A DNA stretch of 64,000 bases from a virus, in the IMG/VR virus record IMGVR_UViG_3300021976_000010, positions 1 to 64,000 of that record, one strand, 5' to 3'. Positions within the stretch are counted from its first letter, which is position 1. Every line of letters starts with the position of its first letter. Both the position numbers and the translations under genes were made by a program. Below are positions 3,996 through 50,049 of the stretch, one piece after another. Below the pieces are notes generated by a model. The model was not told the origin of the DNA. It saw nothing but the letters and a program-made list of their open reading frames with translations, and did no database searches.

Positions 3996-4138
3996 GTCTC
4001 GTCCTCGTCTACTATGCGGATCGTGACCGCGTGCAGCTTGGTGATGCGAAGCAGCGCCTCGCGGTGCTCCTCGAACGTCGCGCGTGGTATGTAGAACTCG
4101 CCGTGATAGAGCACCTCTACGATTTCGTCGTCTTTCAT
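3992..4138 (-). CDS. Hypothetical acidic protein, 48 aa
   Basis: This small frame starts at ATG 4138 and stops at TGA 3992-3994, with four-base ATGA overlaps on both sides, filling exactly the space between two genes. It begins MKDDEIVEVLYHGEFYIP and is predicted mostly strand then helix. The coupled position is the main support; the family is unknown. Confidence 0.65.
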   Translation of the reverse strand: MKDDEIVEVLYHGEFYIPRATFEEHREALLRITKLHAVTIRIVDEDET

Positions 4139-4461
4139 CGGAAGAACTTTCGTCCGAGCGCGGTGATGCTGTCATTCGCATCAATGAGGCCCCTGTCACG
4201 CAGACGCTTCAGCACCGGCCACGGCACCGTTCGGGGTTTCTTGTTGAGGCAACGCAGCATTGCCTCTCGCTCGTCGCTGCTCAGCTTCTCGTCCGTTGGC
4301 GTGTGCCGGTACTCGGATGGATCGAGCGTGACAACCTTTCCCCACTGCTCAGGCTTCATCATGTGACTCTCATCGATATAGACAGATGTGAAGTTCGTCT
4401 TGCTTCGCAGTATCTCCATGATCTTCTCGTCGATGTTCATGATATGCACAAATGGACTCAT
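4135..4461 (-). CDS. Hypothetical protein with winged-helix-like C-terminus, 108 aa
   Basis: I start at ATG 4461, which is coupled to the stop of the next upstream gene. The C-terminal 40 residues (AMLRCLNKKPRTVPWPVLK, then RLRDRGLIDANDSITALG) have the helix-turn-helix then LxDRGLI...TxxG wing pattern of small winged-helix domains. The N-terminal half carries an acidic YIDESHMM segment. A DNA-binding regulator is plausible but unproven. The ORF extends further upstream, but that part overlaps the neighbour and is arginine-rich. Confidence 0.65.
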   Translation of the reverse strand: MSPFVHIMNIDEKIMEILRSKTNFTSVYIDESHMMKPEQWGKVVTLDPSEYRHTPTDEKLSSDEREAMLRCLNKKPRTVPWPVLKRLRDRGLIDANDSITALGRKFFR

Positions 4462-4685
4462 GATAGCGCACTCCACACCGCGTACAGGAAGAACATGAGG
4501 CCGAACACCACGAAGCCGAGCGCGGCGTTGTTGCGCCGCTTCTCGCGCCTGCGCCATCTAGTGTCGACGGCCCTGCGCAGGGTGCCCGCCTGCTCGCAGT
4601 ACGGGAAGAGACAGTTGTTCAGACTGCGCGTGCCGATGATGCAGTCTTTGCTGATTGCGTCGCGATATGCGTGTGGGTCTGTCAT
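4458..4685 (-). CDS. Tail-anchored small membrane protein, 75 aa
   Basis: ATG 4685 opens a 75-residue protein with a soluble N-terminus containing three cysteines (CIIG, CLFPYC). A basic RWRRREKRR segment follows, then one hydrophobic helix (ALGFVVFGLMFFLYAVW) at the very end. The positive charges before the helix predict a cytoplasmic N-terminus. It overlaps the next gene by ATGA. No known family. Confidence 0.6.
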   Translation of the reverse strand: MTDPHAYRDAISKDCIIGTRSLNNCLFPYCEQAGTLRRAVDTRWRRREKRRNNAALGFVVFGLMFFLYAVWSALS

Positions 4686-4695
4686 GCGGTTTCTC

Positions 4696-5079
4696 CTATC
4701 GCAGGTCGATGGAGGGGATGATGGTGGATGGCTTGAACGTGATGCGATAGAAGTACGTGCCCACCTTGGCCGGCTCCATCTGCTCCGAGAAGTACGTGAC
4801 GTTGTCGCTGAGCCCGAGAAAATGTTTCTTGTACTGTCCTTCACCTGTCTTGCAAGTGACGGCGAGTTTCTTGTCTGAATGTTCCTGCGAGCACAGGCCC
4901 TCGATCGTGAGCATGTAGTCGTTGGTGATGCCGTTGTAGAATACGATGCGCCGGTTGATGCCGAAGTTGTCTGCGGCCTGCGAGAGATTGTACGAGGCGA
5001 CCTGCGCATCGTTGGAGCAGGCACCAATTGAGAAGCCGACAGTGGCGAGTGCGAAGGCGGTGAGTGCAAATGTCTTCAT
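4696..5079 (-). CDS. Predicted secreted lipoprotein, 127 aa
   Basis: The N-terminus is a signal peptide (K2, then a hydrophobic stretch to residue 19) ending in IGAC, so lipidation at C21 is likely. The mature part is beta-rich: it contains the sequence SQAADNFGINRRIVFYNG followed by a TIEGLCS segment. That strongly recalls a lipoprotein annotated in actinobacteriophages as a beta-sandwich lipoprotein. Two more cysteines in the mature part could form a disulfide. It would sit in the host envelope; superinfection exclusion is a reasonable guess, not shown. Confidence 0.65.
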   Translation of the reverse strand: MKTFALTAFALATVGFSIGACSNDAQVASYNLSQAADNFGINRRIVFYNGITNDYMLTIEGLCSQEHSDKKLAVTCKTGEGQYKKHFLGLSDNVTYFSEQMEPAKVGTYFYRITFKPSTIIPSIDLR

Positions 5080-5291
5080 GCTGTTGTCCTCGGTTTGATA
5101 AACTCTTGTATGTGGGGCTTGGTCTTACGGTACTCACAGTTGAACACGAGCTGTTCGATGTCTTGTCGTCCGATGGCCTGCATCGTCATGCGAGCCGCCG
5201 CCTCCTGACACTGGTCGTACGTCTGGTCAACGGGGCCGAACACGTGAACGATAGAGCCGGCCATGTTGTAGATGATGAGAAATACTTTCAT
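5076..5291 (-). CDS. Hypothetical protein, 71 aa
   Basis: ATG 5291 begins a short protein (MKVFLIIYNMAGSIVHVFGP) with a hydrophobic but beta-like N-terminus and a helical, glutamine-rich centre with two cysteines. It couples by ATGA to the lipoprotein gene, so the two may be made together. I do not recognise the family; a small periplasmic partner of the lipoprotein is possible, though the N-terminus is a poor signal peptide. Confidence 0.65.
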   Translation of the reverse strand: MKVFLIIYNMAGSIVHVFGPVDQTYDQCQEAAARMTMQAIGRQDIEQLVFNCEYRKTKPHIQEFIKPRTTA

Positions 5292-5659
5292 TCAGTGTCC
5301 ACCTTCTTGCCGTCTACGAACGTGAAGTTGCTGGTGATGTTCACCCAGCTACGGATGCGCTTGATCTCGACGCGCAGAATGCCGCCCGCGTCGCTCAGCT
5401 CCCGCGCATGATCGTACAGGTTACCGAACTTGTCGTGAATGAGCTTGACACGAGCGTGCGCCACGGCGTCGAGAAACTTCTGCCGATTGGCGGGACCGGC
5501 GAATCGCGGCTCGGGAAAGGGAATCAGCAGCCACTTGTCTATGGCCTGCGGTGGATCGGCGAGCAGTGCCTCCAGCGTGACGAGAGGATGCAGAACGCGG
5601 TCGTGCGGGTGCACCGTCGCCGGTGCCTTGGCCTTGGCCTTCTTGACTGCCTTCTTCAT
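5288..5659 (-). CDS. Hypothetical protein, 123 aa
   Basis: ATG 5659 was chosen because it overlaps the stop of the upstream gene. The first 12 residues are lysine- and alanine-rich (MKKAVKKAKAKAPA), a common phage N-terminal tail that may bind nucleic acid. A compact domain with PHDRVLHPL, LIPFPEPRFAG and an IRSWVNITS stretch follows. No cysteines and no membrane segment are present. No family is recognised. Confidence 0.7.
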   Translation of the reverse strand: MKKAVKKAKAKAPATVHPHDRVLHPLVTLEALLADPPQAIDKWLLIPFPEPRFAGPANRQKFLDAVAHARVKLIHDKFGNLYDHARELSDAGGILRVEIKRIRSWVNITSNFTFVDGKKVDTE

Positions 5660-8714: not shown

Positions 8715-8908
8715 CGTCAGCAACGTGGACCAACGCCAGCGCCGAGCACATCATGGCAGACCTCACGACCATTGCGAGGGCTCTGTGGGAGCAGCACATC
8801 GACGAGAGTCGCAGAGTACGCCTGCTCATGATGAGCACGTCACCGCTCGCGTTGTGGCAGGTGTATCGCGCACCTCGCACGGGCAAGTCTAGGATCGTCG
8901 TCACGTGA
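8711..8908 (+). CDS. Hypothetical protein, 65 aa
   Basis: ATG 8711 overlaps the preceding stop and its own stop overlaps the terminase start (GTGA), so translation is coupled to the large subunit. The protein is helical, with a basic C-terminus (YRAPRTGKSRIVV). It may be a packaging accessory by position only. Confidence 0.6.
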   Translation: MTSATWTNASAEHIMADLTTIARALWEQHIDESRRVRLLMMSTSPLALWQVYRAPRTGKSRIVVT

Positions 8909-10440
8909 ACTTCCATCGCATGCCCGATGACTTCGGTGATCACGGCAAGCCCGGGCACAACTCGCAATACTACACGGAAGAGGATATCGACCTCATCGGG
9001 CAGAGCGCGGCCATCGAGGCTCGCTCGTCGCTGTGGGCATATCGACGGTTCATGGACCCCGAGCTGGTCATCGGCTGGTTCCCGCGCGCTATCAGCCTCG
9101 CTCTGCAAGAGTTCTATGACGACCTCGTCGCGGGCAAGCGGCCGAAGCTGATTCTCGAGGCACCACCTCAGCACGGCAAGACGCGCAACATACAGGACTT
9201 CCTTGCATGGGCAGCGGGGCAGAACCCTGACTTCAAGATGATATACGCCTCCTTCTCGTCCGATCTCGGTGTCGACGCGAACACCGCGATGCAGCGTCAG
9301 ATGGGAAGCGAGAAGTATGGGATGGTGTTCCCGGACACCATGATCGGTGCGCAGAACGTTGTCACGATCGCGAACCGCACCAAGCGTAATTCGAAGCTCA
9401 TCGAGTTCGACGGGCGCAAGGGCTACTTCCGCAACACCACGGTCAACGGGCAGATCACGGGTAAGACGCTGGACCTAGGCGTCATCGATGACCCTATCAA
9501 GGGCAGGGCCGAGGCCAGCTCGAAGCTCGTGCGCGACAAGGCATGGGCATGGCTCATGGACGACTTCTTCACGCGATTCACCGATCGCGCGGGAATGATA
9601 CTCATGGCTACTCGGTGGCACGTCGACGATCCCACGGGCAGGTTCATCAAGAAGTTTCCCGACGCCAAGGTGCTCAAGTTTCCGGCGCTGTCCACTCGCC
9701 TGAATCCCGAGCTCCCCCGCCCATACGACCTTCGACGGAAGCGGGGCGTGCCGCTGTTCCCGCAGTTCAAGTCCAAGACGTTCCTCATGGAGCGCAAGAA
9801 CGCGAGCACCATTGCTTCATGGGAGTCGCTCTACCAGCAATCGCCGATCATAGTCGGGGGAGGCATGTTCCCCCTCGACCGTATCAAGCTCACGAAGGTG
9901 ATGCCTGAGGACAAGCGTATCTTGAAGACGGTGCGATACTGGGACAAGGCGGGCACGCAAGACGGTGGAGCGTACACGGCTGGCATTCGCATGCACGTTA
10001 TCAAGGACGGTGGATGGCTCATCAGTGACGTCGTTCGCGATCAGTGGGGCGCGCTCGAGCGCGAGAATGTCATCAAGAACACTGCCGAGCAAGACGCGGC
10101 ACTGTTCGGCAAGATGAACGTTGAGATCTACACCGAGCAGGAGCCGGGTTCGGGCGGCAAGGAGAGCGCCGAGCGCACGATAGCGATGCTCGCGGGCTAT
10201 CTGGCGTATGCGAAGCGCGTGACTGGTTCAAAGGAGCTTCGTGCTGATCCGTATGCTGCGCAGTGGCAGGGCGGGAACATCAGCATGCTGGTGAGGCCGT
10301 GGAACGATGCTTTCCTCGACGAGCACGAGGCGTTTCCGAACTCGAAGTACAAAGATCAGGTTGACGGTGCGGCAGGTGCGTTCATGGAGTGCACCGGCAA
10401 TCAATACGCGTACGATACATCAATGGCATGGGCGGAGTAG
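8905..10440 (+). CDS. terL: Terminase large subunit
   Basis: This 511-residue DNA-packaging motor has a Walker A motif APPQHGKT at 86-93, Walker B LDLGVIDDP at 189-197 and a coupling motif MILMATRWH at 231-239. The RNase-H-fold nuclease follows, with RYWDKAGTQDGG (D347), an acidic YTEQEPGSGGK segment (E411, E413) and KYKDQVDGAAGAF (D484, D487). It cuts concatemers and pumps DNA into the prohead through the portal encoded next. The length is typical. GTG 8905 is the coupled start. Confidence 0.95.
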   Translation: MNFHRMPDDFGDHGKPGHNSQYYTEEDIDLIGQSAAIEARSSLWAYRRFMDPELVIGWFPRAISLALQEFYDDLVAGKRPKLILEAPPQHGKTRNIQDFLAWAAGQNPDFKMIYASFSSDLGVDANTAMQRQMGSEKYGMVFPDTMIGAQNVVTIANRTKRNSKLIEFDGRKGYFRNTTVNGQITGKTLDLGVIDDPIKGRAEASSKLVRDKAWAWLMDDFFTRFTDRAGMILMATRWHVDDPTGRFIKKFPDAKVLKFPALSTRLNPELPRPYDLRRKRGVPLFPQFKSKTFLMERKNASTIASWESLYQQSPIIVGGGMFPLDRIKLTKVMPEDKRILKTVRYWDKAGTQDGGAYTAGIRMHVIKDGGWLISDVVRDQWGALERENVIKNTAEQDAALFGKMNVEIYTEQEPGSGGKESAERTIAMLAGYLAYAKRVTGSKELRADPYAAQWQGGNISMLVRPWNDAFLDEHEAFPNSKYKDQVDGAAGAFMECTGNQYAYDTSMAWAE

Positions 10441-10442
10441 AG

Positions 10443-12680
10443 ATGGCGAAGAAATCAGGAGTTTCGCGCGTGGCCGCTGCGTCTACTCGCAGTGCCACAC
10501 GTGCAGCGGCCAAGACACTAGGCAACAGTCGCCCGCACAGCGCGACGAAGGACATGACCGACGGTCTGCAGAACCTCGTCACTGGCATGGGCACCGAGAA
10601 GGACAAGGCGTTCAGCACCACCTTCGCGTTCTCGCAGATGAACCGCGTCGAGCTCGACGCAGCGTATCGCTCCGACTGGATTGCGCGCAAGGCCGTTGAT
10701 ATCCCTGTCGACGACGCGACGCGTGAGTGGCGCGAGTGGCAGGCAGACCCCGACGAGGTCGAGGCGATCGAGACCATTGAGAAGGACCTCGCCATCCAGA
10801 TGAAGGTGCGAACGGCGATGCAGCGCGGCCGACTGTACGGGGGCGGCGGTCTCGTGCTCGGCATCAACGACGGGAAGCAGCCTGAAGAGGAGGTCGTGCT
10901 CGACGATCTCGATGAGGGCTGTCTCGAGTTCGTGCATGCGGTGTCGCGCTATGAGCTTCAGGCTGGCGAGATGGAGTGGGACGTACTCTCGCCCTACTAT
11001 GGTGAGCCGAAATACTACACGCAGAGCGGCAACGCGTCAGCGTCGCTGCGTCTGCACCCGTCGCGCGTGGTCCGCTTCATCGGAAACGAGATTCCTGATC
11101 CCGCGCTGGCGCAGGGCTGGGGCGACAGCATCATCCAGTCTGTGTACGACGCCATCATCGGGGCCGGCTCGGTTAACGCATCGCTCGTGCAGCTGATCGC
11201 CGAGGCCAAGCTCGACGTCATCAAGATACCGGGCCTGTCGCAGAACATCATGAACCCAGACTACGAGGCGAGGCTCAAGAAGCGTTTCAGCTTTGCCAAC
11301 GTATCGAAGTCCATCTTCGGTATTCTGCTGCTCGACAAGGAAGAAGAGTGGGAGCGCATCAAGGCCGAGTTCGCAGGCATGCCGGACGTGCAGAAGGTGT
11401 TCCTGCTCGTGGCGTGCGGTGCCGTCGACATACCTGCGACACGCTTCCTCGGTCAGTCGCCGGCAGGGCTGTCGTCTACCGGTGAAGGCGACCTTCGTAA
11501 CTACTACGACGGCGTCGGCTCCAAGCAGAAGAACGAGGTGCAGCCGACGCTCGTGCGGCTCGACGAGGTCCTCATTCGCAGTGCACTCGGCGCGATGCCG
11601 TCGTCTGGTGAGGGCGATCACGGTGACATCCACTACAATTGGCGGCCCCTGTGGCAGATGACGCCGGCAGAAAAGGCCACGGTTGCCAAGACCAAGGCAG
11701 AAACGTTCAAGGTTGATGTCGACGCGGGACTTATCAACGAGGTCGTGCTCAAGAAGGCTCGCGAGGCACAGCTCATCGAAGACGGCACCTATCCCGGGCT
11801 CCAAGCCATCATCGAAGACTTCGACGACGATCCCGATCTGGAGCAGGCCGCTATCGACGAGGAAGAGGCCGCCCGTCAGGCCGCCGAGATGCTGGCTCAA
11901 GGCGGCGCCCCCGCTTCAACCAACCCGGATGCATCAAATGCACAGAAGCAGATTGCAGGACCGCAGCCCAAGCTCCTCGCTTCGCCGACGAAGAAACCGC
12001 CGTCGAAGGGTGCGAAGAAGAGAGCGCCGAATGCCGCTGTTGACGCAATGGTGCGTCGCATGCAGGACGCGGTCACACCTCGCACGCTCTATGTTCGTCG
12101 CGACCTGATCAACCAGAAGGCGGTGAAGGCATGGGCCAAGAAGGCGGGCTTCAAGACGAGCCTCACTGACATGCACGTGACCATCGCGTACAGCAAGGAG
12201 CCGGTCGACTGGATTGCCATGGGCAACGACGGGTGGAGCGGCAACGAGAAGGGCACGCTCACGGTGAAAGCCGGGGGACCTCGCGTTCTCGAGAAGTTCG
12301 GCAGCGCAATTGTGCTGGCGTTCGCGAGCTCCGACTTGAGCTGGCGCTGGCGCGACATGAAGGACCGGGGTGCGTCGTGGTCATACGATGACTACACGCC
12401 ACACGTCACGATCACCTACGACGGTGGTGACATTGACTTCATGAGCCTCAAGGCGTACGACGGCGAGTTGGTGTTCGGCCCCGAGATCTTCGAGGAGATC
12501 AAGACCGGCTTCAACAACGAGGTTGACACCGTCGAGGACGGTCTGCACCACTCGCCTCGCGGGCAGTTCAGTGGCCGCTCGACCAGTGAGTTCGCACCAG
12601 ACGAGCATGATCAGGACGAGATGCATCGTCAGGCCAGCGGGCGCGCACGGCGTCCGCGCAAACCAGAGACGGAGGAATAG
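10443..12680 (+). CDS. Portal protein with C-terminal Acb1-like anti-CBASS phosphoesterase domain
   Basis: ATG 10443 follows GGAG by five bases. Residues about 60-470 form a DUF1073-type portal: RSDWIARKAVDIPVDDATREW, GRLYGGGGLVLG and TRFLGQSPAGLSSTGEGD are characteristic. An acidic, proline/lysine-rich linker leads to a domain at about 545-700 with two HxT motifs, MHVTIAYS (H578, T580) and PHVTITYD (H654, T656), the signature of 2H phosphoesterases. Acb1, first described in phage T4, has this fold and cleaves the cyclic nucleotides that activate CBASS defence; its database family includes portal-linked forms. Both catalytic motifs are intact. Whether the domain acts in the virion, in the cell after release, or is structural is unknown. 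Confidence 0.85.
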   Translation: MAKKSGVSRVAAASTRSATRAAAKTLGNSRPHSATKDMTDGLQNLVTGMGTEKDKAFSTTFAFSQMNRVELDAAYRSDWIARKAVDIPVDDATREWREWQADPDEVEAIETIEKDLAIQMKVRTAMQRGRLYGGGGLVLGINDGKQPEEEVVLDDLDEGCLEFVHAVSRYELQAGEMEWDVLSPYYGEPKYYTQSGNASASLRLHPSRVVRFIGNEIPDPALAQGWGDSIIQSVYDAIIGAGSVNASLVQLIAEAKLDVIKIPGLSQNIMNPDYEARLKKRFSFANVSKSIFGILLLDKEEEWERIKAEFAGMPDVQKVFLLVACGAVDIPATRFLGQSPAGLSSTGEGDLRNYYDGVGSKQKNEVQPTLVRLDEVLIRSALGAMPSSGEGDHGDIHYNWRPLWQMTPAEKATVAKTKAETFKVDVDAGLINEVVLKKAREAQLIEDGTYPGLQAIIEDFDDDPDLEQAAIDEEEAARQAAEMLAQGGAPASTNPDASNAQKQIAGPQPKLLASPTKKPPSKGAKKRAPNAAVDAMVRRMQDAVTPRTLYVRRDLINQKAVKAWAKKAGFKTSLTDMHVTIAYSKEPVDWIAMGNDGWSGNEKGTLTVKAGGPRVLEKFGSAIVLAFASSDLSWRWRDMKDRGASWSYDDYTPHVTITYDGGDIDFMSLKAYDGELVFGPEIFEEIKTGFNNEVDTVEDGLHHSPRGQFSGRSTSEFAPDEHDQDEMHRQASGRARRPRKPETEE

Positions 12681-12684
12681 CAAC

Positions 12685-12810
12685 ATGTGGACGCTCGCAA
12701 TGATCGCGCTGGGCATTGTCATTGGATGGCAGATACCGCAGCCCGAATGGACCAAGCGGACCTTCGCGTCCATCTGGGCGTGGACTCGTGACAAGTTCGG
12801 CATGAACTAG
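12685..12810 (+). CDS. Small single-pass membrane protein, 41 aa
   Basis: GGAGG at 12671-12675 precedes ATG 12685. Residues about 3-16 are hydrophobic (LAMIALGIVIGW) and the remainder is aromatic and basic (TKRTFASIWAWTRDKFG). It resembles a short membrane peptide with an amphipathic tail. The strong ribosome binding site is the main support. Confidence 0.55.
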   Translation: MWTLAMIALGIVIGWQIPQPEWTKRTFASIWAWTRDKFGMN

Positions 12811-12820
12811 GGAGAATGAA

Positions 12821-13243
12821 ATGGCTTCGCTGATCTATAACAACGCACTCTGGAACCAAGTCAAGGGCGCTATCGACTTCGACACCGACTCGTTTAAGTG
12901 CATGCTGCTCACCAACGCATACACCGCGAACAAGGACACTGACAACTTCCTCAACGACGTCGAGACCCATCAGGTCACTGGCACGGGCTACACGGCAGGA
13001 GGCGCGGCCGCGACCGTGACAGTCGCTGCGATCGACGCGACGAATGACCGAATCGAGGTCACGCTTGGTGGCGTGTCGTGGGTCACGTCGACGATCACCG
13101 CACGATACGGTGTCTACTACAAGTCGCGAGGTGGTCTGTCGTCGGCTGACGAACTCATCGCGCTGGTAGACTTCGGCTCCGACATTGCATCCGCGGGCGG
13201 CACCTTCTCGCTGTCGGCGTCGATCATCAGGTATCAAAACTGA
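12821..13243 (+). CDS. Virion structural protein, 140 aa
   Basis: GGAG at 12810-12813 leads ATG 12821. The sequence is beta-rich with a typical phage structural layout: IDFDTDSFKCMLLTNAY near the start, VTGTGYTAGGAAATVTV, VSWVTSTITARYGVYYK and ending ALVDFGSD. I recall this family as a common hypothetical structural protein near head or tail genes. It shares its general build with the protein at 38111-38521. A head-surface or tail role cannot be distinguished. Confidence 0.7.
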   Translation: MASLIYNNALWNQVKGAIDFDTDSFKCMLLTNAYTANKDTDNFLNDVETHQVTGTGYTAGGAAATVTVAAIDATNDRIEVTLGGVSWVTSTITARYGVYYKSRGGLSSADELIALVDFGSDIASAGGTFSLSASIIRYQN

Positions 13244-13244
13244 G

Positions 13245-13391
13245 ATGAACACCTTCTACGTCATCACAGGTCTGGCCGTTGTGTCGGGTGCAGCGTGGTT
13301 CCACGATGCCTTCTCAGGTACTGTCGTGACGATGGTCTGCTTCGTCATCGGGACCGCGTGGATTATGTGTGGGGAGAAGAGCAAGTGCTGA
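13245..13391 (+). CDS. Small membrane protein, 48 aa
   Basis: The ATG lies just past the preceding stop (TGAGATG). Two hydrophobic stretches cover about residues 4-18 and 25-42 (VVTMVCFVIGTAWIM), and the tail is basic (GEKSKC). It overlaps the next gene by seven bases. No family is recognised. Confidence 0.55.
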   Translation: MNTFYVITGLAVVSGAAWFHDAFSGTVVTMVCFVIGTAWIMCGEKSKC

Positions 13392-14377
13392 AATTTCACG
13401 GTCACCAGTTCGCGGCCGACAGCATCTGTTCGTGTTGCACCGGCGATGCGCGCGTGGTGTCGATCGATCCCACGGGCACGCGCCCGTTGCGCACCACGTT
13501 CAACTCGACGCTGGCAATCAAGTGGCGCGGACTACGGGTGCTCACGCGCACCATGATAGTGGATCAGGATATCCTGTCGATGGGGAGCAAGGGCTTGATG
13601 GCCATTGCCAATCCCTCGATACAGGGCGGGTCGACGAAGATACAGATGTTCCAGCGGTGGTTCGACCACATCGCGCAGGCACAGGTGCTCGCGGGCGACG
13701 GTTCGTGGATGCGCACCTTCATCGAGAGGGGATACAATGCGGGGCAGTCATTCGCGCAGGCGCAAGTCGGCGCAGCACATGTCTCCAGATATGCGGGTGA
13801 CAGGCAAGAAGCCCTATTCCAGCTTGCCGTGGTGGAACTCCAAGGGATCATCGAGGCAGTCAGTCAGCAGGCCGTTCGAGCCGTGGCGGCTGGGATACTC
13901 AATGGGCAGCGACCCTCCGCTATCGTTCGGTCAGTGTACCGCGTTATTGATCGTACTGGCGTCAGTCGCTCTGCTGCGTTGGTTGAGCTGATCGTCGTCA
14001 AGGCATTCAGCGAGGCGACACTCGACGTGTACGAGGCGGCGGGTGTGCGCAAGGTTGGTCTGCTGCCAGAACGCTTGCGTGCCCCCGCGCGCGTGGGAGA
14101 CGCGAAGCGCAAGAAGAAACTGGACCCGAGCGGCCCGGGCACGTCGCGCAGGTCGCGCAACAATCCCGAGGGGCCGAGTGGTCGCACGGTGCAGCGCATT
14201 CGGCGGTTCGAGCGCAATCTTGAGCGCAATCCGCTTGTCGCAGTGCAGACGGCGGGCGACGACGATGTCTGCAAGGTGTGCAACGGCATATCTGAGGACG
14301 GTCCGTACAAGATCAACACGGCACGAGCACTCATACCCGCGCATCCGCGCTGTCGGTGTGTCTTCGTTCCAGAGTAA
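13385..14377 (+). CDS. MuF-type head morphogenesis (minor head) protein
   Basis: GTG 13385 follows GGGGAGAAGAG. The 330-residue protein ends with CKVCNGISEDGPYKI...ALIPAHPRCRCVFVPE, the CxxC ... HPxCRC signature of the SPP1 gp7/Mu F minor head proteins that bind the portal and the capsid interior. A second CSCC cluster near the N-terminus (residues about 14-17) is less usual. The helical middle (ELIVVKAFSEATLDVYEAAG) also fits the family. Its place directly after the portal gene is typical. Some copies are injected with the DNA. Confidence 0.85.
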   Translation: MLKFHGHQFAADSICSCCTGDARVVSIDPTGTRPLRTTFNSTLAIKWRGLRVLTRTMIVDQDILSMGSKGLMAIANPSIQGGSTKIQMFQRWFDHIAQAQVLAGDGSWMRTFIERGYNAGQSFAQAQVGAAHVSRYAGDRQEALFQLAVVELQGIIEAVSQQAVRAVAAGILNGQRPSAIVRSVYRVIDRTGVSRSAALVELIVVKAFSEATLDVYEAAGVRKVGLLPERLRAPARVGDAKRKKKLDPSGPGTSRRSRNNPEGPSGRTVQRIRRFERNLERNPLVAVQTAGDDDVCKVCNGISEDGPYKINTARALIPAHPRCRCVFVPE

Positions 14378-14441
14378 CGCGACGGCAGGCCCCGCACCGT
14401 CCAGCATCACGCGAGGGGAACAGACACTGGAGAAGATGACG

Positions 14442-14945
14442 ATGTCCAAGACACCACATCCAACAGCTCATCCGGCACCTCACGGTGAATCGGATGCCGC
14501 CAACCTTGCCCGCACTGGCCACGCGTCAGGCGGGTATGTCGGCAGCGGAAAGCCTGAAGGCGAGACCGTCTCCGATCTCGGCAGGTCGCACGGTGAGAAC
14601 GAGGACGACCGTTCGCGCTATGCGCACGACGGCGATCGCCGCCCTCGCAGCGAAGGCCAGCGCGATCTGGGACTCAACGCACCGGAGGCTCGCGTCGAGG
14701 AAGCCCGTGACGCGGTGAAGCAGCGACAGGACAAGCTGTCTGCACAGAACGAGGAAGGCCACGCGCGCAACATGGCGCGCGAGGAAGAGCGACTCAAGGA
14801 TCGCAAGACCGTTGACGCTGAAGACGGCGAGATCGGCGCACCTGATCCGAAGCTGGGTCGCGAAGACAACGGCAACACTCCGCGTATCGCGGCCGACGGA
14901 ACCAAGTCCTGGCATCCCCCGGGCGTCGCCGGCGCAATTCGCTAA
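14442..14945 (+). CDS. Polar, intrinsically disordered protein, 167 aa
   Basis: ATG 14442 is preferred over ATG 14436 because GGAG at 14429-14432 then has a nine-base spacing. The protein is rich in Asp, Glu, Arg, Gly, His and Asn with almost no hydrophobic core, and has a coiled-coil-like stretch at about 87-125 (EEARDAVKQRQDKLSAQNEE). The lack of a core and its position between MuF and the tailoring cassette suggest a head-internal or scaffolding-type protein. That is inference. Confidence 0.65.
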   Translation: MSKTPHPTAHPAPHGESDAANLARTGHASGGYVGSGKPEGETVSDLGRSHGENEDDRSRYAHDGDRRPRSEGQRDLGLNAPEARVEEARDAVKQRQDKLSAQNEEGHARNMAREEERLKDRKTVDAEDGEIGAPDPKLGREDNGNTPRIAADGTKSWHPPGVAGAIR

Positions 14946-14961
14946 CTGAAGAAAGCGCGTC

Positions 14962-15843
14962 ATGAAACTCTGGGCCTTCAACGACTCTCACGACTGGGGA
15001 ACCCAACTCGCGAGAGCTGCGCAGGCCCGGGGCCATGACGCGCACCTCTTCGAGAACCCGCGCGAACCAGACACTGGCAACGTGTTCATGCACATGCACC
15101 ATCAACCGCAGGTGCGTCTGCTTCACAAGCGGTGCATGGCCATCATGGCGATGCGCCCCGAGCTGAACCTGATACCGTCGTACCGTGCGTCGTGTCTGTT
15201 TGACGACAAGCTGGAACAGGCAAGGCAGCTCGCTCGATGGATGCCACGTACTCACGTGTTCTATTCACCGGGCGCGGCCAAGCGGTGGCTCGACCGTGGA
15301 ATGACGATACCGTTCGTGTCCAAGAGCTCAGAGGGAGAGAACTCGCACAATGTCCGGATCATCGCCAACCTCGAAGACGCGTACAAGGAAGTCCGATACG
15401 CCTTCAGCGACATCGGCATCAAGTGCCGTCACCAGCAAACGCAGCGCGGTTATCTGCTCTGGCAATCACACGTTGACAGCGAAGCTGAATACCGCGTTAT
15501 CGCTGTTGGACGTCAGCGTCTTATCCTCAGGCGAGAAGGTGGCGACGATCGGTCTGTGGCACAAGGTCAAGGGCAGCTTAGACCTGTCCTGAGGCTCGAC
15601 GTCGACGATCACACCGTCGAGCTGTACGCTCTCGCGAACCGCTTCTTCACCGAGGAGGGCATCAAGTGGGGTGCCGTCGACATGGTGCGCGGACCAGACG
15701 GCGGTTGGTTCGTGACCGGCTTCACGGTGCGATGGACGATGCACCACTACTACGAGTGTCCGTTTCTGTTCGACGAGCAGAAGCGGTGCGGCAACGATAT
15801 CTGGAATGTCCTACTGGACGAAATCGAAGCAGGAGCTATCTGA
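14962..15843 (+). CDS. ATP-grasp-like ligase, 293 aa
   Basis: The layout suggests an ATP-grasp enzyme of the RimK/glutathione-synthetase type. An N-terminal lobe (MKLWAFNDSHDWGTQLA) is followed by a lysine-containing strand IPFVSKSSEGENSHNVRII at about 116-134, which fits the ATP-holding loop. The acidic strand WGAVDMVRGPDGGWFVTGFT at about 236-255 fits the Mg-binding region, though the usual E.N pair appears as GFT.R here. Such enzymes join a carboxylate to an amine or thiol. Its stop overlaps the methyltransferase start. The unusual metal site lowers certainty. Confidence 0.55.
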   Translation: MKLWAFNDSHDWGTQLARAAQARGHDAHLFENPREPDTGNVFMHMHHQPQVRLLHKRCMAIMAMRPELNLIPSYRASCLFDDKLEQARQLARWMPRTHVFYSPGAAKRWLDRGMTIPFVSKSSEGENSHNVRIIANLEDAYKEVRYAFSDIGIKCRHQQTQRGYLLWQSHVDSEAEYRVIAVGRQRLILRREGGDDRSVAQGQGQLRPVLRLDVDDHTVELYALANRFFTEEGIKWGAVDMVRGPDGGWFVTGFTVRWTMHHYYECPFLFDEQKRCGNDIWNVLLDEIEAGAI

Positions 15844-16433
15844 TGGACCACTTCTACACGACGATACCGGGCTGGGCGGCGTTCAAGCAGACGTATATCG
15901 ACGTCGTGCGTGCGGCCCGGGGCGGCGAGCACTTCGTCGAGATCGGATCGTGGGCGGGCCGCAGTGCTGCGCTGATGGGCGTGGAAATCCACAATAGCGG
16001 CAAGCACATCACGTTCGACTGCATCGATCCATGGCTTGACGGCGGTGTGGACCTGCGCGACACTCAGCATCAAAAGCTGCTCAACACCGAGCAGGTGCCG
16101 CTGTTCGAGCAGTTCAAGCGCAACGTCGCGCCTGTGCTGCATCTGATCAATCCGATCCAGATGATGTCGCTGAACGCGGTCCAACTTTACTCCCCCGCTT
16201 CAATCGACTTCATCATGATCGACGGTGACCACACCTACGAAGCCGTGCGCGATGACATCGCGGCCTTCCTGCCAAAGATGAAGAAGGGCGGCATCATGGC
16301 AGGCGACGACTATGGATGGCCGGGGGTGCAGCGGGCCGTTCACGAGGTATTCGGCCCGCGCGTGCAGGTATTCGGTAAGGGTCATCCGAAGAACTACCGT
16401 CTGGGATCGCAGCATTGGCTGGTGAAGTTATGA
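15843..16433 (+). CDS. Class I SAM-dependent methyltransferase (Methyltransf_24-like), 196 aa
   Basis: ATG 15843 overlaps the ATP-grasp stop. FVEIGSWAGRSAALMGVEI (about 30-48) is the SAM-binding GxGxxG-like motif I, and ITFDCIDPWLDGG follows as motif II. SIDFIMIDGDHTYEAVRDD, then FLPKMKKGGIMAGDDY (about 120-160) is the acidic loop and strand typical of Methyltransf_24 and related sugar or antibiotic O-methyltransferases. In this cassette a sugar or an attached group is the likely target rather than a DNA base, since no DNA-recognition domain is present. Confidence 0.8.
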   Translation: MDHFYTTIPGWAAFKQTYIDVVRAARGGEHFVEIGSWAGRSAALMGVEIHNSGKHITFDCIDPWLDGGVDLRDTQHQKLLNTEQVPLFEQFKRNVAPVLHLINPIQMMSLNAVQLYSPASIDFIMIDGDHTYEAVRDDIAAFLPKMKKGGIMAGDDYGWPGVQRAVHEVFGPRVQVFGKGHPKNYRLGSQHWLVKL

Positions 16434-17128
16434 TCGCGACAGCTATCATCACGGCACCGCGCCCGCGCAATACGCTGTACGAGTCCATTCAGTCGTGGCG
16501 TCACGACGGCGGCTTCACGGGACCGTTGCTCGTGTGCTCAGACGCGATGCCCGGTATTCGCGGCACGCTGCTGAGCGTGCACGAGAACGTTCCGGCGCTC
16601 GGCAACATGCGAAACTGGAAACTCGCTCTCAGTATGTTGGTCTCGCAGGGAGACGACGAGTGGCTGATGGTGTGCGAAGATGACATAGTCTGGGCCAAGG
16701 GCGCACGTGATGCTCTCGATCGGGAGTTGCCCGCACTCAAGGAGAGCGTGACATTCTCGAGGGCAGGCGGCCTGTCGTTGTATCTGCCTCGTCGCCACAC
16801 GAAGAAGATGATGAGACTGCGCCCGGGCTGGCATGGCAGCGGGCTTCAGCAGGCTCACAAGACATGGGGCGCGCAGTGCATGGTGTTCTCGCGCGGGCAG
16901 GCGCTGGAGTTGCTCGGTGACCTGAAGTTCGGAGAGCTCACGAGCGATCTCACTCGCGACAAGAACATCGACGCGGTGTTCGGGCGCTGTATCAACGCGC
17001 GCGGCAAGGAAATCCTGTATCGGGTCCCCTGCCTCGTGAACCACACGCTGGGCGACGGCAACTCGTCGCTGGGCTACAGTGCGGACAGGCCGGACCTGCG
17101 CACTGACTACTGGACGGGGCGCGCATGA
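16430..17128 (+). CDS. GT-A-type glycosyltransferase, 232 aa
   Basis: ATG 16430 overlaps the preceding stop. The N-terminus IATAIITAPRPRNTLYESIQ is a nucleotide-sugar-binding strand-helix, and LMVCEDDIVW at about 83-92 supplies an acidic EDD metal-binding motif in place of DxD. HGSGLQQAHKTWGAQCMVFS forms the acceptor-side loop. The pattern fits phage GT2/GT25-like transferases. It lies second among the sugar genes in a tightly overlapping cassette. The donor and acceptor cannot be read from sequence. Confidence 0.7.
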   Translation: MIATAIITAPRPRNTLYESIQSWRHDGGFTGPLLVCSDAMPGIRGTLLSVHENVPALGNMRNWKLALSMLVSQGDDEWLMVCEDDIVWAKGARDALDRELPALKESVTFSRAGGLSLYLPRRHTKKMMRLRPGWHGSGLQQAHKTWGAQCMVFSRGQALELLGDLKFGELTSDLTRDKNIDAVFGRCINARGKEILYRVPCLVNHTLGDGNSSLGYSADRPDLRTDYWTGRA

Positions 17129-17853
17129 AACAGGTAACGCTGGTCTACGCCTTCTACGACAATGAAGAGATGCTTCTCCGTCATCTGGCGGAGTGGCATG
17201 AGTATTCATCGTTTGTGAAGACGCTCATCAAGATCATCATCGTGGATGACGCCAGTCCCAACGTGGTCGCGTCGGAGGTGGTCAACTTCTTTGGCTACAC
17301 GGGCGTCGATATTGCGGTGTATCGCGTGCAGAAGGACATCCCGTGGAATCAGGACGGGGCGCGCAATCTGGCGATGCAGGAGGCGCAGACTGAGTGGGTA
17401 TACATGACCGACATGGACCATCTTGTTCCAAGTGATCAGGTTGGTCGCATGCTGGGCTTCGTCGAGTACTGTGCGGTGACTGGTCACTACTACATGCCGG
17501 ATCAGCGCCTGACCAGCGGCGAGAGTGTGCACAGGCCACACCCGAATTCGTTCTTGATGCGAGTCGATGATTTCTGGGCGATGGGTGGGTATGACGAAGA
17601 CTTCGCAGGCTGGTACGGCTCAGACGGTAACTTCCGCAAGTGTGCGCGTGGCGCTGGCCTTGTCGAGCTGCCCATCGACGCATTCTACACCACGGTCTTC
17701 CGTTCGGAGGACATATTCGACGCGAACACCAAGCTCTCTCGCAAGGAGGGCTCGTTCTACGCGCCGCTGAACCAGAAGCTGAACGCCAAGCGCAAGGGGC
17801 CGCCGTACAAGGCGGTCAATCCTGTTCGCTTCGAATGGAAGAGGGAGCTATGA
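17125..17853 (+). CDS. GT2-family glycosyltransferase, 242 aa
   Basis: Starting in an ATGA overlap, the protein has IIIVDDASP at about 38-46, NQDGARNLAMQEA at 74-86 and TDMDH at 95-99 (the DxD metal site). GGYDEDFAGWYGSDGNF follows around 152-168, the GGxDE.F..W...D pattern of GT2 and GalNAc-transferase-like enzymes. It would transfer a sugar from an activated nucleotide donor. A C-terminal basic tail completes it. No membrane anchor is present, so it acts in the cytoplasm. Confidence 0.8.
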   Translation: MKQVTLVYAFYDNEEMLLRHLAEWHEYSSFVKTLIKIIIVDDASPNVVASEVVNFFGYTGVDIAVYRVQKDIPWNQDGARNLAMQEAQTEWVYMTDMDHLVPSDQVGRMLGFVEYCAVTGHYYMPDQRLTSGESVHRPHPNSFLMRVDDFWAMGGYDEDFAGWYGSDGNFRKCARGAGLVELPIDAFYTTVFRSEDIFDANTKLSRKEGSFYAPLNQKLNAKRKGPPYKAVNPVRFEWKREL

Positions 17854-18593
17854 GAACGCACATCGTCCTGTGGAAGTGGGGACAGGACAATATGATCGGT
17901 GACAGGCGCTACACGTACGAGCACGTCAACGTCATGAACGCCATGCTCCTTCGCAACACCGCGACGATGCAGCGCTCCCCCGTTCGTGTGGTCTGCGTGA
18001 CCGATGAACCGGGCGGTATCGACTGTGATACCTTCAGACTTTGGAGGGACGGCGATAATCTGGTGAACGCGACGAAGCCGACACTACCCTCGTGCTATCG
18101 CCGGCTGAAGCTCTACGACAGGGCCACTCAGCGGGACATGGGCATTGAAGCGGGGGACCGTGTCGTCAGTCTGGACCTCGACACTATCGTGTGCGGGGAC
18201 ATGCGCAGGATACTCGAGACGCAGGGCAGGTTCGTCGGGTGGAAGCTCGCAGGCACCTACCATCCCGAGGTTTACAACGGTTCGTTCCAGATGTTTACCG
18301 CTGGTGACCTCCAGCACATCTGGTCGAGCTTCGATCCGCAGACGTCGCCGCTCGCGGCGAAGCAGGATGGATGGCTGGGTTCTGATCAGGCGTGGCTCTC
18401 CATGAATCTGGTGGGCAAGGAGGGGAGCGTCGACGTGCCCTTTCCCGAGTTCGCGTCATACCCGCTGCATCTACGGATCAGCAGGGCTTTCACCGGCAAG
18501 CATCGGCTTGTCTTCTTTCACGGCCGCGTCAAGCCGTGGTCCACGCAGGCACAGGCTGACTCATCGTGGGTTCAGCGATATTGGAGACAGTGA
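17850..18593 (+). CDS. GT8-like glycosyltransferase, 247 aa
   Basis: ATG 17850 follows GAGGGAG. RVVCVTDEPGGID near residue 46 and the central VVSLDLDTIVCGD at about 104-116 carry the DxD of GT8-type glycosyltransferases. KLAGTYHPEVYNGSFQMFT is the conserved substrate loop and FFHGRVKPW near the end is the matching C-terminal H..G..KPW motif. It is the last gene of the ATP-grasp/methyltransferase/glycosyltransferase cassette and its stop abuts the protease start. Confidence 0.8.
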   Translation: MRTHIVLWKWGQDNMIGDRRYTYEHVNVMNAMLLRNTATMQRSPVRVVCVTDEPGGIDCDTFRLWRDGDNLVNATKPTLPSCYRRLKLYDRATQRDMGIEAGDRVVSLDLDTIVCGDMRRILETQGRFVGWKLAGTYHPEVYNGSFQMFTAGDLQHIWSSFDPQTSPLAAKQDGWLGSDQAWLSMNLVGKEGSVDVPFPEFASYPLHLRISRAFTGKHRLVFFHGRVKPWSTQAQADSSWVQRYWRQ

Positions 18594-20008
18594 TGTTCCA
18601 CTTTACAGACATGGTCATGGAGCTCGACGACGGGGCCAAGGTGCGCAAGACACAGGACGGGTATCTCGCGGCAATGCCGCGCGTTGCCCGCACCGGCATC
18701 CAGCTCTATCGCGGCTCCGAGCTCGGCATCAAGGACAAGGACATTGTCCGTATCTACCGCGCCCCGGAGGAGGTGTTCAAGGCTGATGCGATGAAGTCGT
18801 TCGCGGGCAAGCCTTTCACCGACGACCATCCGAAGAAGCCCGTGGACTCGAAGAGCTGGAAGGATGTCAGTCGCGGCATTGCTGGCGAAGACGTGCTTCG
18901 AGATGGTGAGTACGTGCGAGTTCCCATGGTTCTCATGGACGCTGGCATGGTGCGCAAGGTCGAGGGCGGCAAGATCCAGCTCTCGGCGGGCTACACTTGC
19001 GACATCGCGTGGGGCGAGGGCACCACGCCGACGGGCGAGACCTATGACGGCCGTCAGATCGACATTCGCGTGAATCACATCGCGGTCGTGGATCAGGCGC
19101 GCGGGGGCAGGGTACTGTCCATCGGTGACGCAGCAAAAGTTTCCAACGCCATCATGCTTGGCGTGAAAGCAATTCGGGCGGGAGAGGTCAACGACCTTGA
19201 CCCTCTCGACGGAGGGGCGGGCGCGGTGTGCCTGCTCGACACGGACTACCCGTTCTTGAAGGATGGGAAAGTGCATACTCGCGCTCTGCGGGATGCGAGG
19301 ACGGCAGCACTAGCAGCGGATGACACGAGCGGCCTGCTCGCCATCGACATGCTGTTGGAGTTGATTTCTGACAATGGCAACCAACGGAGAAAACCTGCCA
19401 TGAAGACGATGATTGTTGACGGTATCACCTGCGAAATGTCCGACACCGCCGTCGAGGTGGTGACCCGGGCACTCGCCAAGGCCGCCGACGCCTTCAACTT
19501 CGAAAAGAAGAAGGGCGAGGAGGAGGAAGAGAAAAAGAAGAAGGTCGAAAAGGACAGCGGCGAGGCGATCGCCAAGCTGACCACCGAGAATGCGACCAAG
19601 GATGCGGAGATCGCAACCCTGAAGTCGCAGCTCAAGGATTCGGCCCTCACGCCGGACAAGCTGGACGCGATGGTCAAGGATCGTCAGATCGTGGCCGACA
19701 AGGCGAAGGCCCTGCTTTCGACCGTTGTGGTCGATGGCAAGACCGTCGACGAGGTGATGCGTCAGGTGGTCGACGCCAAGCTCGGCGCCGTTGCCAAGGA
19801 CTGGAAGCCGGAGCAGGTGAAGGTGTCGTTCGACACCCTGACCGCTGGCGTGCAGGCCAAGGACAGCTCGGGCTTTGACGCTACCGCCCGCGCGTTCTCC
19901 ACGCCGCCGATCGGTGATGCGGCTGCGCAGTCCGAAAAGCGGTACGACAGCTATGACGCCAAGATCTCCAACGCTTGGAAGACCCCCGAGCCGGCGACTC
20001 GTCAGTAA
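18593..20008 (+). CDS. DUF2213-type prohead protease with scaffold-like C-terminus
   Basis: The 471-residue protein begins with a DUF2213 domain: QLYRGSELGIKDKDIVRIYR, SFAGKPFTDDHP at about 69-80 and LSAGYTCDIAWGEGTTPTG, ending in IRVNHIAVVDQARGG. This family is thought to be a capsid maturation protease. After about residue 270, a lysine/glutamate-rich coiled coil (KKKGEEEEEKKKKVEK) and helical repeats look like a scaffold region, so one protein may supply both roles. ATG 18593 follows GGAG. The position just before the capsid genes agrees. Confidence 0.8.
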   Translation: MFHFTDMVMELDDGAKVRKTQDGYLAAMPRVARTGIQLYRGSELGIKDKDIVRIYRAPEEVFKADAMKSFAGKPFTDDHPKKPVDSKSWKDVSRGIAGEDVLRDGEYVRVPMVLMDAGMVRKVEGGKIQLSAGYTCDIAWGEGTTPTGETYDGRQIDIRVNHIAVVDQARGGRVLSIGDAAKVSNAIMLGVKAIRAGEVNDLDPLDGGAGAVCLLDTDYPFLKDGKVHTRALRDARTAALAADDTSGLLAIDMLLELISDNGNQRRKPAMKTMIVDGITCEMSDTAVEVVTRALAKAADAFNFEKKKGEEEEEKKKKVEKDSGEAIAKLTTENATKDAEIATLKSQLKDSALTPDKLDAMVKDRQIVADKAKALLSTVVVDGKTVDEVMRQVVDAKLGAVAKDWKPEQVKVSFDTLTAGVQAKDSSGFDATARAFSTPPIGDAAAQSEKRYDSYDAKISNAWKTPEPATRQ

Positions 20009-20102: not shown

Positions 20103-20561
20103 ATGGCTGTTCAGACTTCCTACTCCGAGCGCATGTCGCCTCCCGGTCCGGGCACGATCAGCGGCTCGGATTTCGACACTGTCACCGGTCTCTGCGAAAC
20201 CGCTTCCCCGGGCATTCCGTTCGGTCGCGCTGTCTCGCAGGGCACGCTGTCCGACAAGGGCGTCGTGCTCGGTGGCACCGCAGCCGCGTTCCGTGGCGTC
20301 TCCGTGCGTGACATCACGCTCGGTGCCGAACAGGACGCGTATCTGCCGCCGAACAACGTCGGCATTCTGAAGAAGGGTGAAGTTTGGCTGGAGCCGTCTG
20401 TCGCGGTTGCCGCCAACGACATCGTTCACTTTGACACTGCGACCGGTATCTTCAAGATCTCGGGCGGCATTCTTGTCAAGGGCGCGCGGTGGGTCACCTC
20501 GTGCGGCGTCGGCGGGCGCGCAATCGCCTACTTCGCCGGCTACGACCGCAACGCTACCTAA
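20103..20561 (+). CDS. Putative head decoration protein, 152 aa
   Basis: AGGGAAAAC precedes ATG 20103. The small beta-rich protein (GLCETASPGIPFGRAVSQG, GVSVRDITLGAEQD, VGILKKGEVWLEPS, VAANDIVHFDTATG) resembles capsid cement/decoration proteins that lie between protease and major capsid genes and bind the shell surface. High glycine and valine content and lack of charge clusters agree. The call is by pattern and position. Confidence 0.65.
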   Translation: MAVQTSYSERMSPPGPGTISGSDFDTVTGLCETASPGIPFGRAVSQGTLSDKGVVLGGTAAAFRGVSVRDITLGAEQDAYLPPNNVGILKKGEVWLEPSVAVAANDIVHFDTATGIFKISGGILVKGARWVTSCGVGGRAIAYFAGYDRNAT

Positions 20562-20641: not shown

Positions 20642-21601
20642 ATGCGACGTCATATGGTCACTGACCAGCAGGCCATGGGATTTCTCGTTTCCCAGACTGC
20701 TCACATCGAGAGTCAGGTCGTCGAGATCCAGTATCCCGACATCCAGTACCCTGCTCTCATCCCGGTGGATACCTCCGCCAACGAGTGGGCCAAGTCCGTC
20801 TCTTACTACTCGCTGGACAAGGTCGGCAAGGCGAACTGGTTCCACCACACCGCCAAGGACATCCACATCGCCGACGTCGAGCGTGCACAGCACGAAGTCG
20901 GCGTCGAGATGGCCGACATCGGCTATCGCTGGACGCTCGAAGAGCTGGGTCAGGCGATGATGATCCCGGGTATGAACCTGTCCGCCGATCGGGCAGGTGC
21001 GGCCCGCCGTGCCTACGAAGAGTTCGTCGATGACGTGGCTCTTCGCGGCAAGGCGGAGAAGTCGATCTACGGGATCATGAACTATCCCGGGATCACCGCT
21101 GTCCTTGCGTCCAACGTCGGTGGCAACACCACGTGGGATGCCAAGACCGCGGACGAGATCCTCAAGGATGTCAACGATGCACTGACTGGCATGTACGTCA
21201 GCTCGCTCACGGTCGAGATCGCGGATACGATCTTGCTGCCCGTCGGCGCAATGACCATCATCGCCACGAAGCGCATTCCCGACACCACGATGACCGTTCT
21301 CCAGTTCTTGCTGGCGAACAACGTCTACTCGCACCAGACCGGTCGTCCGCTCACCATCCGCACTCTTCGCGGCTTGGAGACGGCAGGCCAGAACGGTTCG
21401 GGCCGCATGATCGCGTATCGTCGGGACCCGCAGGTCCTGAAGATGCACATCCCGATGACTCACAGGTTCCTGCCCGTCTGGCAGACCGGCCCGTTGGTCT
21501 TCGACGTTCCCGGCATCTTCCGTCTCGCTGGACTGGAAGTTCGGCGCCCGGGTGCGGTACGCTACGTCGACGGCATCCTCACTTCGGATGAGCTGTCGTA
21601 A
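20642..21601 (+). CDS. Major capsid protein (DUF2184-like), 319 aa
   Basis: TGAGGAAG precedes ATG 20642. The sequence VDTSANEWAKSVSYYSLDK, MADIGYRWTLEELGQAMMIPG, ARRAYEEFVDDVALRGKAEK and YGIMNYPGITAV matches what I recall of DUF2184 major capsid proteins with the HK97-like fold; the G..K..GI.NYPG segment is typical. It contains three or four long beta segments with a spine helix. It lies after the protease and decoration genes and is followed by the strongest intrinsic terminator in the operon, as expected for the most abundant product. Confidence 0.88.
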   Translation: MRRHMVTDQQAMGFLVSQTAHIESQVVEIQYPDIQYPALIPVDTSANEWAKSVSYYSLDKVGKANWFHHTAKDIHIADVERAQHEVGVEMADIGYRWTLEELGQAMMIPGMNLSADRAGAARRAYEEFVDDVALRGKAEKSIYGIMNYPGITAVLASNVGGNTTWDAKTADEILKDVNDALTGMYVSSLTVEIADTILLPVGAMTIIATKRIPDTTMTVLQFLLANNVYSHQTGRPLTIRTLRGLETAGQNGSGRMIAYRRDPQVLKMHIPMTHRFLPVWQTGPLVFDVPGIFRLAGLEVRRPGAVRYVDGILTSDELS

Positions 21602-24642: not shown

Positions 24643-25191
24643 ATGCCCACTCCCACAATGGAATCCCCGAACGTCGGCAACCTTCAGGTCGGCAAGGGGA
24701 TTGTCACGTTTCACAAGACCGGCGACGCAGGCTTTCGCGACCTCGGCAACGTCACATCGCTTGTCGTCACGCCCGCGATTGAGACCCTTGAGCACTTCAG
24801 CTCGCGCGAGGGTGTTCGCAAGAAGGACCTTGTCATCACTCTCGAGCAGGGCGGCACAGTGACGATGGTGATGGAGGAATTCACCGCGTACAATCTCTCT
24901 ATCATGACGCTTGGTTCGATGGATGAGGCGGCTGTCGGTGGCCCGGAGGTAGAGATCTTTGCTGCCACGGCAATCACCGGCCACCTGCGTTTCGTCGGCA
25001 CCAATGACGTTGGTCCGAAGATCACGCTCGATCTTTGGAACGTGTCGTTTACTCCGACCGGCGATCTCCAGATGATCTCCGATGAGTGGAACAACATGGA
25101 AGTCGAGGGCGAGGTGCTCGTCGCTGCCGATGGTGCCAATGTTGGCAAGTTCGGCCTCGCCAAGTTTACGAACGTCACCGACGTCTCCTAA
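24643..25191 (+). CDS. Major tail tube protein, 182 aa
   Basis: AGGAGC precedes ATG 24643. The beta-rich protein has VGNLQVGKGIVTFHKTGDAG, DLGNVTSLVVTPAIETLEHF, SSREGVRKKDLVI and then TVTMVMEEFTAYNLS. This V..G.G...F.......F..LGN......T....L.H.SSR.G pattern is characteristic of siphovirus tail-tube proteins. The C-terminal WNNMEVEGEVLVAADGANVGKF strand pair completes the fold. Hexameric rings of it form the tail tube. Confidence 0.85.
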   Translation: MPTPTMESPNVGNLQVGKGIVTFHKTGDAGFRDLGNVTSLVVTPAIETLEHFSSREGVRKKDLVITLEQGGTVTMVMEEFTAYNLSIMTLGSMDEAAVGGPEVEIFAATAITGHLRFVGTNDVGPKITLDLWNVSFTPTGDLQMISDEWNNMEVEGEVLVAADGANVGKFGLAKFTNVTDVS

Positions 25192-49663: not shown

Positions 49664-49679
49664 CACAGGGAGTAGCGTC

Positions 49680-50047: not shown

Positions 50048-50049
50048 CC

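Follow-up and report, generated by a model that had tools for sequence, protein, structure and literature searches.

A candidate virion glycosylation cassette within the head operon of an environmental phage lineage

A five-gene block in the head operon

A block of five overlapping open reading frames (ORFs), which may serve to glycosylate the virion, lies at 14962-18593 of the stretch analysed here, namely 64,000 of the 76,974 bases of IMG/VR virus record IMGVR_UViG_3300021976_000010 (the window). All five are on the + strand and encode, in order, an ATP-grasp protein (14962-15843, 293 amino acids), a class I, O-methyltransferase-like methyltransferase of the Methyltransf_24 type (15843-16433, 196 amino acids), a GT-A glycosyltransferase with a GT13-like fold, here GTa (16430-17128, 232 amino acids), a family-2-type glycosyltransferase, GT2 (17125-17853, 242 amino acids), and a GT8-like glycosyltransferase, GT8 (17850-18593, 247 amino acids). 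The four inner junctions are overlaps of 1 or 4 bases, and the stop codon of GT8 overlaps the ATG of the prohead (head maturation) protease gene at 18593 in a TGATG junction. The protease (18593-20008, +) matches phrog_530 (E=6.5e-80), and the left flank is formed by a MuF-like head morphogenesis protein recognised by PHROGs (13295-14377, +). An earlier note on this DNA had described the block, and the ORFs and functions that it assigned are present. Their position between MuF and the protease also holds, except that MuF is not the immediate neighbour, since the gene of a low-complexity protein with a conserved C-terminal motif (14442-14945, +) intervenes.

The methyltransferase matches Pfam family PF13578 (Methyltransf_24) with E=5.1e-18, its weaker Pfam matches being O-methyltransferases, and shares 47-56% identity with 12 relatives in which the motif residues are invariant. 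Searches against PDB sequences with the methyltransferase or the GT8 profile gave no match. GTa has a weak match to phrog_854, a glycosyltransferase family (E=7.9e-6). Its structural model (predicted local distance difference test, pLDDT, 86.3) adopts the GT-A fold and is closest to POMGnT1 (5ggi_B; Z 17.7, root-mean-square deviation (rmsd) 3.3 over 214 residues) and GnT-I (1foa; Z 17.1, rmsd 3.3, 208 residues), followed by many GT-A families at Z 13-15. With these GT13 enzymes it has the GT-A fold in common at about 15% identity, and its E83, D84 and D85, invariant in 11 sequences, presumably correspond to their E-D-D motif. As judged from its model, the third cassette gene product is a glycosyltransferase of GT-A fold. 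GT2 matches PF10111 (Glyco_tranf_2_2, E=1.4e-10) and PF00535 (E=1.1e-8), with D41, D42, D96 and D98 invariant in 13 sequences. GT8 matches phrog_1962, likewise a glycosyltransferase family (E=8.3e-9), and scores 12 bits against Pfam PF01501, below the cut-off of 24.3; D109, D111, G225, K228, P229 and W230 are invariant in 15 sequences, and we take the D-x-D and G..KPW residues to be motifs of glycosyltransferase family 8.

RimK, LysX and ArgX are ATP-grasp ligases that act on protein carboxylates. The first cassette protein had no match in Pfam or PHROGs, tblastn against phages gave nothing, and a related-locus search with ATP-grasp alone was also empty. Nevertheless, its alignment profile matches RimK (E=0.0024), and the AlphaFold model (pLDDT 86.8) matches ArgX (3vpb_A; Z 22.9, rmsd 3.1, 263 residues), LysX and RimK (5zct; Z 21.2, rmsd 3.2, 261 residues) along its whole length, so that profile and predicted structure together confirm a fold of the RimK/LysX/ArgX type. 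In the family, the columns of Lys121 and Asp240 are invariant (8 sequences), while the Asn of RimK is mostly replaced by Thr or Ser. Unlike these ligases, the window copy lacks the Mg-binding Glu: it reads TGF instead of LET in the metal-binding column, which aligns to 'mEvn' of RimK. Because this Glu is replaced while 7/7 relatives keep it, the window protein is probably inactive, a judgement from one residue. The earlier note had allowed for acylation by the cassette; the ATP-grasp protein, to which such a role would fall, has lost the catalytic residue in the window, and its gene is absent from about half of the relatives.

Among the remaining genes of the region, PHROGs assigns the terminase (from 8905) and the portal (10389-12680), both upstream of the cassette, and a conserved small protein (from 12821) lies between portal and MuF. 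The protease is followed by a capsid cement protein (20103-20561, +; PF22758, E=2.7e-21). Residues 576-705 of the portal protein form a C-terminal domain that matches phrog_755, which is annotated as RNA ligase (E=1.9e-21).

Conservation and known counterparts of the cassette

Viral contigs were scanned with GT2, GT8 and methyltransferase alignments, and the loci were then read with hidden Markov models (HMMs). Copies were merged by identical HMM scores and coordinates (L107/L129, L108/L109, L117/L118) or, for L217/L219, by the match and the tail of the major capsid protein (MCP). Since cassette loci were found via their glycosyltransferases, the presence of these genes was selected, whereas their order and neighbours were not. 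The block was found between MuF or portal and the protease in 16 distinct viral contigs (the window and 15 others), always in the order (ATP-grasp)-(methyltransferase)-(GTa)-(GT2)-GT8-protease, where brackets mark genes not present in every contig. GT8 occurs in 16/16; in the 15 contigs whose block is not cut off (G003, where it is, was left out of these counts), ATP-grasp is present in 8/15, the methyltransferase in 13/15, GTa in 11/15 and GT2 in 13/15. The smallest cassettes (L135 and L139) consist of ATP-grasp and GT8 only, leaving GT8 as their sole glycosyltransferase. Cassette proteins are 39-65% identical to those of the window, and the catalytic residues of methyltransferase and glycosyltransferases are invariant among the relatives. 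Because the block recurs at the same site in 15 other viral contigs, its layout is more than chance; the comparison of synteny suggested in the earlier note returned a constant order.

The cassette is confined to a part of the related loci. A portal scan gave 80 loci, of which 65 show both portal and protease (no more than 400 bases apart in 59 of these), and cassette genes were found in 0/65. Among 35 loci of the methyltransferase scan, only G001 and G002 carry the cassette, HMMs detecting no cassette order in the other 33; therefore, the methyltransferase family alone is not diagnostic. Megablast of 8905-20008 against phages gave no match. Protein distances of the methyltransferase and of the three glycosyltransferases correlate with head-gene distances, GT8 for instance with portal (r=0.76), MuF (0.74), cement (0.73) and MCP (0.66), the weakest value being GT2-MuF (0.37). 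These are comparable to the correlations of head genes among themselves (0.40-0.87).

Additional enzymes accompany the block in some relatives. The cassette of L117 carries a UDP-glucose/GDP-mannose dehydrogenase and that of L218 an NAD-dependent epimerase and two methyltransferases; these sugar-nucleotide enzymes fit glycan synthesis. A GT-D enzyme is added in L215. Related GT2/GT8 genes occur in head or tail modules of L123 (order portal, MuF, GT2, protease), L126, L127, L128 and L130, and in L121 a GT2/GT8 pair stands outside such modules, close to a recombinase. In some relatives, the space from MuF to the protease is a cargo slot: endolysin-like and collagen-like frames fill it in G006, which has no cassette (L099 10250-17059), and a collagen-like gene and other frames lie beside the minimal cassette of L135 (4537-7394). 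A Myxococcaceae metagenome-assembled genome includes L282 (RPRB01000006.1), which has 75,335 bases, as has cassette contig 3300009168_000004; this is a host hint at most and may be a binning artefact.

The earlier note had held that tailoring enzymes are not expected at this place, a view overturned by the cluster O mycobacteriophages. According to a passage in one source, the portal and protease genes of these phages flank genes for an O-methyltransferase and for three glycosyltransferases, for which capsid modification was proposed (PMC4351075). The Firecracker and Catdawg records indeed read portal, O-methyltransferase, three glycosyltransferases and protease. Excerpts of two further reports state that proteins of Corndog, Che8 and Myrna are glycosylated, with Corndog gp38 called essential for capsid glycosylation (PMC12363180), and that capsid and tail-tube subunits of mycobacteriophages bear their glycans at the C-terminus (PMC12619734). 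Thus, Corndog, Firecracker and Catdawg resemble the window in the portal-to-protease site and in a methyltransferase followed by three glycosyltransferases; both methyltransferases match PF13578, while in the window the interval also holds MuF and small genes. In contrast, the cluster O proteins are remotely similar only, the related glycosyltransferases stand in a different order, no ATP-grasp is annotated, and portal, protease and capsid belong to a different lineage. In profile comparison by hhalign, GTa matched Firecracker gp36 (probability 88.8%, E=2.5e-6 for one comparison) and GT2 matched gp35 (74.2%, E=2.7e-5), with no match for gp34 and none between the methyltransferases, so that homology did not extend to all four enzymes. 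By analogy, the window cassette is predicted to work like the cluster O one, while common descent of the whole cassette lacks support from the profile comparison.

A second counterpart is Tetraselmis viridis virus S20, which has clear GT8 and GT2 homologues among its head genes, together with a methyltransferase and further glycosyltransferases. Its block is placed after a capsid-like gene and before head closure, and its other members differ, being GT-D and sialyltransferase-annotated.

C-terminal extensions of the capsid and tail proteins

The window MCP (20642-21601, +; phrog_264, E=1.3e-89) ends in an extension, LTSDELS (residues 313-319, bases 21578-21598), whose Ser319 is the proposed acceptor. 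A second acceptor is proposed in Ser182 (bases 25186-25188) at the C-terminus of the major tail protein (24643-25191, +; phrog_807, E=2.8e-31), the two proteins reading SDELS and VTDVS at their ends. Relatives of the MCP were collected by scanning viral contigs and GTDB genomes with an MCP alignment, and distinct sequences were kept only where the MCP gene ended within the locus; the counts refer to the best 80 of 156 relatives. The class without GT8 comprises loci that extend 1 kb or more upstream of the protease, and 13 loci with less were set aside (2/12 distinct MCPs among them with the tail).

The MCP of relatives without the cassette stops at ...DGI or nearly so, and that of cassette phages is 5-8 residues longer, the last residue being Ser (15) or Glu (3). 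The extension is present in 17/17 relatives with a GT8 cassette upstream (18/18 including the window) and in 2/56 without GT8. In L221, one of the exceptions, the protease is preceded by genes for two FkbM methyltransferases and by a heptosyltransferase-like gene, which make up a different sugar cassette. In an earlier set, 0/43 MCPs from the portal scan ended in Ser. Similarly, Ser is the last residue of the major tail protein in 13/14 cassette phages where it was found and in 0/3 relatives without a GT8 cassette (G006, L223, L228). For other proteins of cassette phages, a terminal Ser was counted in 0/14 terminases, 0/14 MuF proteins, 0/14 proteases, 1/14 cement proteins, 0/16 GT8 proteins and 4/14 portals. 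In cluster O, a terminal Ser is found on the capsid proteins of Firecracker and Catdawg and on the major tail subunit of Firecracker (C-termini of the two Firecracker proteins VPLVGS and IKGDS, respectively); capsid and tail subunits are the kinds of protein reported to carry glycans in these phages. A literature search, which left many journals uncovered, found nothing on a C-terminal Ser as phage glycosylation site and nothing on ATP-grasp in such a cassette.

Several observations weigh against a virion glycosylation cassette with the tails as acceptors. The other exception, L223, has the MCP extension with no glycosyltransferase seen, three cassette MCPs end in Glu and not in Ser, and the tail protein of L218 ends in Thr. 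In S20 and L126-L128, where related glycosyltransferases lie near head genes, the capsid candidates do not end in Ser, nor does the S20 tail protein, unlike in the window; therefore, the tag is not general for such glycosyltransferases. About one fifth of the ORFs in these loci end in Ser in any case (32/178, a crude count). Phylogeny also limits the number of independent cases. In an MCP phylogeny computed from sequences stripped of their tails, 15 cassette MCPs, counting that of the window, form one supported clade (100/96), with L216, L218 and L219 placed elsewhere, beside L223 and L227, and L221 elsewhere again, so the link between cassette and extension amounts to 2-3 independent contrasts, each either as expected or tied, for which a sign test is not significant. 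Because the contrasts are few and lack significance, the link is suggestive, and its independent weight comes from cluster O. In addition, the ATP-grasp protein does not co-diverge with protease, MCP or glycosyltransferases: its distances follow terminase and portal (0.82) and not protease, MCP or cement (-0.23 to 0.04). On these small numbers, it may be exchanged separately from the rest of the cassette, since its distances fail to follow theirs.

Upstream of its protease, L223 has an ORF of 1184 residues (1867-5421) that weakly matches an ADP-ribosyltransferase (ART-PolyVal). An apparent link between ATP-grasp and a Glu near the MCP C-terminus was not used, as it was noticed after the fact in small numbers. 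Tails with ATP-grasp read DELS, DEPS, DELS, PSDSE and NYE, and those without it are mostly DQLS; against this pattern, two DNPS tails and one NQYS tail occur with ATP-grasp and TAYE occurs without it.

Candidate targets and proposed function

DNA is a frequent target of phage glycosyltransferases, and the earlier note had considered that the cassette makes a group later moved onto DNA. It would then glycosylate or methylate a 5-hydroxymethyl base made by genes at 48.6-59.3 kb, where the window does have a 5-hydroxymethyldeoxyuridine (5-hmdU) DNA kinase-like gene of the HMUDK type (from 48650), a TET-associated glycosyltransferase (TAGT) or beta-glucosyl-HMC-alpha-glucosyltransferase-like gene (from 50044), a radical SAM-SPASM gene (from 52879) and a thymidylate synthase-like gene (from 56156). 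These belong to a separate DNA-hypermodification set (48650-59257) that includes several genes without assignment. However, the glycosyltransferase of this set sits far from the cassette, which is located, and co-diverges, with head genes. Moreover, the two sets occur together in only part of the records. Of 12 cassette records, possibly incomplete and equal to 10 distinct ones (the scores mark G008/G014 and G012/G013 as near-copies), three (G000, G002, G010) have both HMUDK and the thymidylate synthase-like gene, four others (G003, G011, G015, G016) have QueC, and the remaining 5/12 have none of the three genes; TAGT (PF20691), searched in 9 other records, was not found. The cassette is therefore not tied to one DNA chemistry, and a DNA target, set aside on these co-occurrence data, is very improbable. 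G003 (L102 14778-16205) itself has head and tail genes in common with the window, but its replication part differs and includes QueC and GTP cyclohydrolase I, a gene set pointing to DNA modification of the 7-deazaguanine type.

Surface polysaccharide clusters typically hold GT2-type, GT-D and sugar-nucleotide enzymes, so the block could instead alter the lipopolysaccharide or capsule of the host against superinfection and merely ride in the head operon, for which the cargo slot after MuF in L135 and G006 would offer room. This seems unlikely, given that the cassette always adjoins the protease, overlapping its start in the window, that the MCP extension accompanies it in every case seen, and that the cluster O precedent is reported to act on virions. 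A different virion or scaffold protein as the bearer of the glycan (the 14442-14945 protein, MuF or a fibre), with the capsid and tail ends an unlinked inherited trait of the clade, is also rather improbable, if the least so of these alternatives. It could draw on the few independent contrasts and on the 14442-14945 protein, whose gene lies just upstream and whose C-terminal motif is conserved. Homologues of it occur in G001 and G002, and its tail motif recurs in L116, L119, L135 and L144; an NTPxIDxxGxKxW-like C-terminus and an EGHxxN stretch are seen in the low-complexity proteins of seven contigs (the window, L005, L094, L116, L119, L135, L144); the window copy has no PHROG match. However, the family was recognised, by HMM or by eye, in only 7/16 contigs including the window, and it is accordingly kept as a lesser candidate. 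It also speaks against this alternative that two unrelated proteins share a terminal Ser while the residues preceding it vary, and that a capsid protein and a tail subunit of cluster O have the same last residue.

Overall, the comparative evidence makes it likely that the five genes form a virion glycosylation cassette, with the C-termini of capsid and tail proteins as the most likely acceptors. Virion modification, as envisaged in the earlier note, stands to the extent that comparison can carry it: conserved gene order in the head operon, co-divergence with head genes, the precedent of Corndog-type phages and the tails of capsid and tail proteins. The block is best read as a counterpart of the Corndog cassette in a distinct lineage of phages, the new elements being the ATP-grasp variant and the proposed C-terminal acceptor. 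The glycosyltransferases would be made late, with the head proteins, and would build a short glycan on structural proteins of the phage. GT8, if active as predicted, most likely adds the first or key sugar, after which, in this presumed order, GT2 and GTa would lengthen the chain and the methyltransferase would cap one of the sugars. The acceptor would most likely be the terminal Ser on the short flexible tail of the MCP and of the major tail protein. In about half of the relatives, an active ATP-grasp of the RimK type would ligate an amino compound to a carboxylate, either on the protein tail or on the glycan, a step probably lost in the window virus. More speculatively, and less likely than not, the short Ser-ending tail on two unrelated virion proteins could be a portable tag for glycosylation that exchangeable cassettes in the head operons of distinct phage lineages recognise; in about half of one lineage, the RimK-type ligase would then add an amino compound to this tail or its glycan as a second layer of virion modification, of which the literature searches showed no example.

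Virion glycosylation is known in few mycobacteriophages, where it has been reported to lower antibody binding. The present analysis extends the arrangement to a separate lineage of environmental phages and names the proposed acceptor precisely, as one residue on each of two proteins. If this is true, virion glycans would be predictable from the last residues of capsid and tail proteins.

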